A stretch of DNA of 37,701 nucleotides from Comamonadaceae bacterium (GTDB lineage: Bacteria; Pseudomonadota; Gammaproteobacteria; Burkholderiales; Burkholderiaceae_C): the NCBI GenBank assembly GCA_004144865.1, contig SEAY01000021.1, positions 1 through 37,701 of the forward strand, given 5' to 3'. Shown in pieces: positions 55-2,007 of this stretch; the stretch's first letter is position 1, and each line of letters opens with the position of its first letter. A program made the position numbers and the translations under genes. A model generated the notes under the pieces. That model was not told the origin of the DNA and made no database searches. It saw nothing but the letters and a program-made list of their open reading frames with translations.

Positions 55-2007
55 ATGCTTTATCCCGAAGAATTCGACGTGATCGTCGTCGGCGGCGGCC
101 ACGCCGGAACCGAAGCGGCCCTCGCCTCCGCGCGCATGGGCTGCAAGACGCTGCTGCTCACCCACAACATCGAGACCCTGGGGCAAATGTCCTGCAACCC
201 CTCGATCGGCGGGATCGGCAAGGGCCACCTGGTCAAGGAGGTGGATGCGCTGGGTGGAGCGATGGCGATCGCTACGGACGAGGCCGGCATCCAGTTCCGC
301 ATCCTCAATTCCAGCAAGGGTCCGGCCGTGCGTGCCACCCGGGCGCAGGCCGATCGCATCCTCTACAAGGCGGCGATCCGCCAGCGGCTGGAGAACCAGC
401 CCAACCTCACGCTGTTCCAGCAGGCCGTGGACGACCTGATGGTGGAGGGCGACAGGGTGGTGGGCGCCGTCACGCAAGTCGGCATCCGCTTCCGGGGCAG
501 GGCGGTCGTGCTGACCGCCGGCACCTTCCTGGACGGCAAGATCCACGTCGGCCTGCAGAACTACGCCGCAGGGCGCGCGGGCGATCCGCCGGCCGTGTCG
601 CTGTCGGCCCGGCTCAAGGAACTGAAACTGCCGCAGGGCCGCTTGAAGACGGGTACGCCGCCGCGGATCGATGGCCGCAGCATCGACTTCTCGAAGTGCG
701 AGGAGCAGCCGGGCGACCTGGACCCCGTGCCGGTGTTCAGCTTCATGGGCCGTGCCGCCATGCATCCGCGCCAAGTGCCGTGCTGGATCACCCACACCAA
801 CGAACGCACCCACGAGATCATCCGCTCCGGCTTCGACCGCAGCCCGATGTTCACCGGGAAGATCGAAGGCGTCGGCCCCCGCTACTGCCCGAGCGTCGAA
901 GACAAGATCAACCGCTTCGCCGACAAGTCCAGCCACCAGGTGTTCCTGGAGCCGGAGGGCCTGACGACCAACGAGTTCTACCCGAACGGCATCTCGACCA
1001 GCCTGCCATTCGATATCCAGCTCGGTCTGGTGCGCACGCTGCCCGGGCTGGAGAACGCGCACATCCTGCGTCCGGGCTATGCGATCGAGTACGACTACTT
1101 CGACCCGCGGGGCTTGAAGGCGAGCTTCGAGACGCGGGCGATCGCTGGCCTGTTCTTCGCCGGGCAGATCAATGGCACCACCGGCTACGAGGAGGCGGCG
1201 GCCCAGGGTTTGTTCGCCGGCATCAATGCCGCCCTGCAGGTGAAGGGCGAAGCGGCTTGGCTGCCTTCCCGCGACCGGGCCTACCTGGGCGTGCTGGTCG
1301 ACGACCTCATCACCAAGGGCGTGACGGAGCCGTATCGCATGTTCACCAGCCGGGCGGAGTTCCGGCTGCAGCTGCGCGAGGACAACGCCGACCTGCGCCT
1401 GACGGAGGCCGGGCGCGCCATGGGCTTGGTCGACGATGCCCGCTGGGATGCCTTCTGCCGCAAGCGCGATGCTGTTTCACGTGAAACAGAGCGGCTCAAA
1501 TCGACCTGGGTGAATCCGCGGATCCTCTCGGTGGACGAAGCCCAGCGGGTCCTGGGCACTACCATCGAACGGGAATACAACCTCGGTGACCTGCTGCGTC
1601 GGCCGGACGTCCGCTACGAGGCGCTGATGAGCCTGGAGGCAAGTCGCTGGCAAAACGTGGCTGTTTCACGTGAAACACTGGGCGAGCTCTATGCGCCGGT
1701 GGTGGAGCAGATCGAAATCGGCGCCAAGTACTCCGGCTACATCGAGCGCCAGAAGGACGAAGTGGAGCGTGCCGCCCACTACGAAAACCTGAAACTCCCT
1801 GCCGAGCTTGACTACATGCAGGTGGCGGCGCTGAGCATCGAGGTGCGGCAGAAGCTCGACAAGCACCGGCCGGAAACCCTGGGCCTGGCTTCGCGAATCT
1901 CGGGGGTGACCCCGGCCGCGATCTCTCTCCTGCTCGTCCACCTCAAGAAGAACAAGTTCAAGGGTTTCGCCGAAGCCGCGAACCAGCCCAGCCAGGCGGC
2001 GGCATGA
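55..2007 (+). CDS. mnmG: tRNA uridine-5-carboxymethylaminomethyl(34) synthesis enzyme MnmG
   Basis: FAD-dependent half of the MnmE-MnmG complex, which installs the cmnm5 group on wobble uridine 34 of certain tRNAs in the cytoplasm. The 650-residue length is normal for the family (about 620-650). Visible marks: the N-terminal Rossmann FAD loop [10 protein letters not shown] (residues 13-22), the [13 protein letters not shown] segment near residue 200, [12 protein letters not shown] near 280, the FAD-binding [13 protein letters not shown] near 375, and the C-terminal helical MnmE/tRNA-binding part containing [10 protein letters not shown]. Its TGA overlaps the rsmG ATG (ATGA), so the two are probably translationally coupled. 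The gene is unusual in holding two perfect parS sites, both read in frame as V-S-R-E-T, using codons (TCA, CGT) that are uncommon in this GC-rich context. Only 54 bases of upstream DNA are present, so the promoter is outside the window. Confidence 0.97.
1473..1488. promoter_or_regulatory. parS: parS centromere site 1 (inside mnmG)
   Basis: Perfect 16-bp palindrome TGTTTCACGTGAAACA, identical to the universal chromosomal parS consensus bound by ParB. It lies inside mnmG and is read in frame as part of A-V-S-R-E-T. ParB loads here, closes as a CTP clamp and spreads; ParA then segregates the origin region. parA and parB follow within 3.3 kb. Confidence 0.95.
1662..1677. promoter_or_regulatory. 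parS: parS centromere site 2 (inside mnmG)
   Basis: Second perfect copy of TGTTTCACGTGAAACA, 189 bp after the first (start to start). It is in the same reading frame, again giving V-S-R-E-T. The spacing of exactly 63 codons keeps the motif in one frame. Both copies are inside a conserved gene, so they constrain the protein sequence there. Confidence 0.95.

Follow-up and report, generated by a model that had tools for sequence, protein, structure and literature searches.

Predicted parS centromere sites inside the mnmG and rsmG genes, upstream of parA and parB, in a Comamonadaceae bacterium and its family

The window analysed here is a stretch of 37,701 nucleotides, the contig SEAY01000021.1 of a Comamonadaceae bacterium (GCA_004144865.1), whose draft assembly comprises 4.35 Mb in 243 contigs and is 93% complete. 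Among the 80 named loci that we kept for comparison, the nearest MnmG is that of a Ramlibacter metagenome bin (L005; 93% identity). The left end of the window carries mnmG and rsmG, followed by parA and parB, a neighbourhood that usually lies near oriC. The features that concern us are listed below with their profile scores; published work is cited by PMC accession, from the parts of each paper available to us.

55..2007, forward strand: mnmG (gidA), tRNA uridine-5-carboxymethylaminomethyl(34) synthesis enzyme (TIGR00136, 894 bits, cut-off 525)
1473..1488, no strand: parS site 1, exact 16-bp palindrome in mnmG, with VSRET as residues 474-478
1662..1677, no strand: parS site 2, exact 16-bp palindrome in mnmG, with VSRET as residues 537-541, in a variable linker
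2004..2681, forward strand: rsmG (gidB), 16S rRNA methyltransferase (TIGR00138, 159.5 bits, cut-off 99.5)
2578..2593, no strand: probable parS site 3, TGTTCCACGTGGAACC, in rsmG and in another frame (V-F-H-V-E-P), with 3 mismatches, all at positions tolerated by ParB (1/16 and 5/12; PMC5450999)
between rsmG and parA: gene for a LysE-type exporter
3327..4193, forward strand: parA, partition ATPase (PF13614, 216 bits)
4190-4732, between parA and parB: serine hydrolase gene (PF06821)
4734..5660, forward strand: parB, parS-binding protein (PF02195, PF17762, PF23552; TIGR00180, 188 bits, cut-off 58), with recognition residues R-x-x-G

An initial annotation of this DNA had placed two perfect parS sites in mnmG, and both exact copies of TGTTTCACGTGAAACA are indeed found inside 55-2007, at 1473-1488 and 1662-1677; a scan of the window that allows up to three mismatches adds one place only, 2578-2593. 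As had also been proposed, the two copies are read identically, each as GCT GTT TCA CGT GAA ACA (A-V-S-R-E-T), 189 bp or 63 codons apart, and the par genes lie 1.6-4 kb downstream, with parA about 1.65 kb and parB 3.1-4.0 kb from the sites by gene position. Little weight attaches to the shared frame: read forward, the palindrome is open in just two of its three frames, the other containing a stop (TGT TTC ACG TGA), so that two copies would agree by chance about half the time, and we dropped it as an argument. The further proposal that the site codons are rare in the gene was right for three of the five: the only two GTT codons (of 42 Val), TCA codons (of 32 Ser) and ACA codons (of 34 Thr) in the window's mnmG are those of the parS sites, whereas CGT makes up 7 of 53 Arg codons and GAA 18 of 47 Glu codons, neither of them rare.

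A chance origin of the sites is ruled out by shuffles of the window, by counts over the assembly and by a control with the reversed pattern. Shuffled windows are expected to hold 0.04 matches with up to three mismatches, and none of 100 shuffles reached three. The whole assembly contains two exact copies, none with one or two mismatches and five with three; the latter are close to background, the reversed pattern finding 5 places in all. Site 3 therefore rests on its conservation and not on this count, since three-mismatch matches in its own genome are at background level. When a 14-base pattern allowing T5C and A12G is used instead, the assembly holds three copies, with all the sites described here fitting the pattern, and the reversed control pattern has none. 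With regard to ParABS membership, the locus thus offers two exact palindromes and one variant changed only at tolerated positions.

Membership of ParABS is also indicated by the ParA and ParB genes nearby, recognized by profile matches and gene position, and by recognition residues in ParB that are of the parS type and not of the Noc type. The window ParB aligns with solved ParB structures and, when numbered after PMC7383237 by matching the six contact residues named there, carries R173, L179, N184 and G201 (R-L-N-G). That paper describes R173 and G201 as absolutely conserved among ParB orthologues; in Noc, the four positions are occupied by Q, K, K and R (PMC7383237). A ParB match was found at 125 of the 199 loci searched, the window included; 113 of these matches cover the motif, and all 113 have R-x-x-G. 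At ten listed recognition positions the window ParB is identical to a Burkholderia cepacia ParB (L066), and it differs from Caulobacter ParB at some contacts (His 162, Arg 171, Leu 179 and Asn 184). Counting against this assignment, the window ParB finds its best NCBIfam match in the Noc model TIGR04285, with a score of 218 bits that is below the cut-off of 315; for the window parA, the ParA-type NCBIfam models shown also all fall below their cut-offs.

To place the sites in context, we used a family sample of 120 genomes, evenly drawn from 119 genera, with MnmG located in 119 of them. Usable mnmG sequences remained for 117 (hereafter rows), after the loss of G411, which gave no MnmG match, of G401, in which MnmG covers residues 1-297 only, and of G396, with a fragment of 110 residues. 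Site 1 was placed by protein alignment, independently of the motif; since sites 2 and 3 and the sites upstream of mnmG were picked by best motif match, which inflates their agreement with it, site 1 alone is nearly free of selection bias. The 14-bp core of the palindrome, GTTTCACGTGAAAC, is intact at the aligned site 1 in 97 of the 117 rows. Site 2, counted downstream of site 1 with up to two mismatches, is present in 77 of 117 and always in the VSRET frame, and a sequence close to site 3 is found after mnmG in 103 of 117, with 101 of these inside rsmG and all 101 in the F-H-V-E/K frame.

The two mnmG sites occur together in 60 rows; a further 37 have just site 1, and 17 just site 2. Of the 3 rows without either, G330 and G347 carry sites upstream, and G387 is a 55%-complete genome. 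The 60 pairs are spaced by 189 bp in 39 rows and by 150 to 225 in the rest, and G171, which belongs to another genus, matches the window in having both copies exact and 189 bp apart. Neither mnmG site is indispensable by itself, because site 1 is absent in 20 of 117 rows and site 2 in 40. Some of these 40 keep relics in the linker, such as VSRASL, ISRAAL, VSRESL and VSRGAL. The history of the sites was followed on a FastTree tree of 192 MnmG proteins with the site columns removed, made up of 112 family rows (at least 600 residues, without G302) and 80 named loci chosen for their similarity to the window's MnmG; in three of the named loci (L033, L042 and L051), all with the core, mnmG is identical to that of a family genome, so that these are counted twice among the 192. 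The least number of changes of state on this tree is 14 for site 1 and 35 for site 2, and the two mnmG sites have been gained or lost repeatedly, with at least one site usually staying in the mnmG-rsmG pair. Site 2 is present in 17 of the 20 rows that lack site 1 versus 60 of the 97 that have it (Fisher p = 0.068), and mutual backup on the tree, with 7 independent pairs, is not significant; the evidence that one mnmG site stands in for the other is no more than suggestive. Separately, the second VSRET of three loci (L012, L030 and L054) stands elsewhere in the aligned linker, near EQIEI or EQIDI, which looks like a shift of the site within the loop, and the MnmG of a Rhodoferax bin (L077) has about 60 more residues than most in the linker directly after site 2.

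Across the 120 genomes, the 14-base pattern occurs 347 times, and 345 of these copies belong to the 117 genomes with usable rows. The gene pair holds 279 of the 345, with 172 in mnmG and 107 in the rsmG stretch, and 76 of the 116 genomes with any copy have none outside mnmG and rsmG. G387 has no copy; neither do G401 and G411, which are 95% and 97% complete and have a truncated MnmG or none located. Motif copies upstream of mnmG number 29 in the 117 rows. In several relatives such upstream copies lie within 60-450 bp of the gene, and any counterpart would not be visible in the window, because the contig starts 54 bases ahead of mnmG. Arrays of copies were also seen. In one genome (G085; L205:1636-4277), 13 parS copies are spaced by about 220 bp, none of them within a listed long open frame, next to frames that by eye look metK-like and dapF-like; another (G040; L206:581-1761) has 4 copies 389 bp apart, likewise outside the listed frames; and in a Pandoraea relative (L047:4985-5910), site 1 is accompanied by six parS-like copies ahead of mnmG, of which the first four follow one another at 231-233 bp.

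This distribution bears on the possibility that the sites do bind ParB and were selected mainly for repressing or tuning mnmG and rsmG through ParB spreading, with segregation a secondary matter. Genes next to a parS on a test plasmid are silenced by ParB spreading in Pseudomonas aeruginosa (PMC4368675), and in Mycobacterium bovis BCG a parS overlaps a gidB promoter (PMC2346475). However, since the copies in mnmG and rsmG are the only ones found in the 76 genomes noted above, segregation there must rely on them, if ParABS works in these bacteria. Moreover, copies can sit upstream of mnmG instead, as in G330 and G347, and the gidA and parA promoter regions of P. aeruginosa, when placed in Escherichia coli, were regulated by neither ParA nor ParB (unpublished results cited in PMC3909081). 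We therefore consider a mainly regulatory role very unlikely.

A different possibility is that VSRET is kept because MnmG needs it and that the match to parS is a by-product of codon choice. The peptide is present at site 1 in 98 of the 117 family members, in a helix of the C-terminal domain, and 97 of these 98 rows have the core. The exception, G394, encodes the same peptide in GC-rich synonymous codons (CGTGTCGCGCGAAACC), which on its own would favour a need of the protein and which looks like a recent decay of parS. More than 1000 encodings of VSRET are possible, yet 97 of 98 rows use a single 14-bp core made largely of rare codons. The initial annotation had suggested asking whether VSRET and its codons occur only where parS is present, and the aligned relatives answer in the same sense. 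Among the 192 rows, outgroups included, 147 have the core and 45 lack it, and 44 of the 45 carry another peptide. The 29 different peptides of the core-less rows are mostly V/I/L-A/E-R-E-x, led by VAREL and IAREQ; VSRET and VSREI occur once each, and the VSREI locus has the motif with one base off.

Scans with a degenerate VSRET[EQ]RL pattern agree. In the 120 family genomes the pattern matches 81 places in 78 genomes; 78 of these have the core, one per genome, and the remaining 3 lie away from the located mnmG and do not encode VSRET. In a scan of the class, 7 of 369 genomes match. Three belong to the same family and have the core; the other 4 lack it, and although two of them encode VSRET, none of the four stretches matches MnmG. 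The use of one core in 97 of 98 rows and the change of peptide where the core is missing contradict a requirement of the protein for VSRET, which we regard as having hardly any chance of being correct. Collectively, these comparisons show selection acting on the DNA of the sites, with the peptide going once the motif is lost.

The codons within the sites separate the two constraints more finely. Of the 98 rows selected on the peptide and not on the DNA, 97 have GTT, 97 TCA and 97 CGT at the respective codons, and all 98 have GAA; ACA, which ends on parS position 16, is kept in just 68. Outside the sites, the shares of these codons in the 97 core-bearing genes are 0.066 for GTT, 0.033 for TCA, 0.095 for CGT and 0.351 for GAA. 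The gene has 336 conserved degenerate codon columns. In 14 the commonest codon ends in A or T, and of these the only four kept in at least 97 of 98 rows are those whose third base ParB is predicted to read. In the VSRET frame, third codon positions fall on parS positions 1, 4, 7, 10, 13 and 16; at site 1, position 1 is off consensus in 28 of the 98 rows with up to four mismatches there and position 16 in 30, and positions 4, 7, 10 and 13 in 1, 0, 0 and 0, so that within the same codons the silent bases tolerated by ParB vary and those it reads do not.

The tolerance itself has been measured in Burkholderia cenocepacia, where, in surface plasmon resonance (SPR) imaging, ParBc1 no longer bound palindromes with symmetrical changes, except for those changed at positions 1-16 or by the transition at 5-12 (PMC5450999). 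Changes of the tolerated kind (position 1 or 16, T5C or A12G) account for 58 of 60 mismatches at site 1 in the family, a tally that covers the 98 of 117 rows with up to four mismatches and leaves out 19 with more. The corresponding figures are 65 of 67 for site 2, 164 of 171 for site 3 and 28 of 28 for the upstream sites, all three inflated by placement on the motif. At site 3, the silent bases 8, 11 and 14 vary in 1, 0 and 1 of the 107 rows counted, and position 5 in 10. Recognition by ParB predicts which third bases are frozen and which drift, and selection on translation or on the peptide does not. The alignments show bases presumably read by ParB frozen even where a change would be silent, and tolerated bases drifting, a conservation at the level of DNA that goes beyond the protein's need and that speaks for ParABS membership. 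These frozen codons, together with the loss of the peptide along with the motif, support the earlier proposal that the DNA site dictates protein sequence at two places in MnmG.

An action of the palindrome in the mRNA, as a hairpin or through translation pausing, would suit a perfect inverted repeat of largely rare codons and is nevertheless extremely improbable. Bases 1 and 16, at the ends of the palindrome, change without preserving a pair: they could pair in 68 of 97 rows for site 1 and in 48 of 77 for site 2, and unchanged T-A makes up 55 and 26 of these. The same motif also occurs upstream of mnmG and in intergenic arrays of two other genomes of the order, and its variation follows the tolerance of ParB.

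Our preferred interpretation is that the sites are very probably working parS sites, as predicted from the comparisons above, for the ParB encoded about 3-4 kb downstream, in a ParABS system located beside mnmG and rsmG. By analogy with known systems, ParB would bind each 16-bp palindrome and spread over the adjoining DNA, ParA would move ParB so that new origins separate, and ParB at parS may also load SMC. In mnmG, the motif would force V-S-R-E-T, in a helix at site 1 and in a variable linker at site 2, and in rsmG, in another frame, F-H-V-E.

What this imposes on the enzyme can be judged from the position of the sites. Both lie within the domain PF21680 (GIDA_C_1st, residues 461-567). The AlphaFold model of MnmG has a mean pLDDT of 63 and reaches 77-85 in the ten-residue blocks at the two sites; because its overall quality is poor, we draw local statements alone from it, namely that site 1 lies within a helix spanning residues 461-483 and site 2 at the start of a helix spanning 539-558. 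As relatives that lack the motif often have V-A-R-E-x, the motif mainly imposes the Ser and the Thr. The cost to the protein is therefore small, amounting to about two residues of a variable helix stretch at site 1 and to a hypervariable linker at site 2.

Intragenic parS sites are already known, and the centromere in mnmG and rsmG is that of a ParABS system of a known kind. The same TGTTTCACGTGAAACA palindrome, with parA and parB near, is found in the ParABS systems of Bacillus subtilis and of B. cenocepacia chromosome 1 (PMC5450999), and the window's relatives vary at the positions tolerated in the B. cenocepacia system, 1/16 and 5/12 (PMC5450999). Unlike in those two, all three copies predicted in the assembly lie inside mnmG and rsmG. 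In P. aeruginosa, parS overlaps coding sequence as it does in the window, nine of ten predicted sites being most likely intragenic, and parS has been disabled there by point mutations that leave the protein unchanged (PMC4368675). In contrast to the window's TGTTTCACGTGAAACA, the motif given for Pseudomonas species is TGTTCCACGTGGAACA (PMC5450999), and the host gene named in P. aeruginosa, for the parS closest to oriC, is recF and not mnmG (PMC3909081). Other genes than here also host the sites in M. bovis BCG (inside parA; PMC2346475), B. cenocepacia chromosome 2 (inside parB; PMC4948915), B. subtilis (inside parB; PMC4442127) and Xanthomonas citri (at the 3' end of dnaN; PMC3937727). In the parts of these papers available, a conserved pair in one enzyme gene with a third copy in the next gene is not described for BCG, B. 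cenocepacia chromosome 2, B. subtilis or X. citri. Our literature search, which did not cover the survey most likely to touch on the subject (Livny et al. 2007), found no description of parS in mnmG or rsmG. The available portions of PMC3909081, PMC4442127 and PMC5295017 mention gidA and do not describe a parS in mnmG, and gidA does not appear in the main text of PMC6315104.

It is tempting to go further and to suppose that in most family members the whole centromere lies inside mnmG and rsmG, that both enzymes have been rewritten by selection on the centromere, and that ParB spreading couples tRNA and rRNA modification levels to segregation, an extension that we consider unlikely as a whole. 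What the present comparison adds to the known cases is the family-wide concentration of the sites in two genes, the separation, site by site, of constraint on the DNA from constraint on the protein, and a match between natural variation and the measured tolerance of ParB. Because variation over about 100 genera agrees with the laboratory binding profile of ParB, such loci make possible a natural mutational scan of centromere recognition. One stretch of DNA here would serve both a centromere and a protein, and comparison among relatives tells the two apart, with the caution that conserved residues in the alignment of an enzyme can stem from a DNA site and not from the function of the enzyme.
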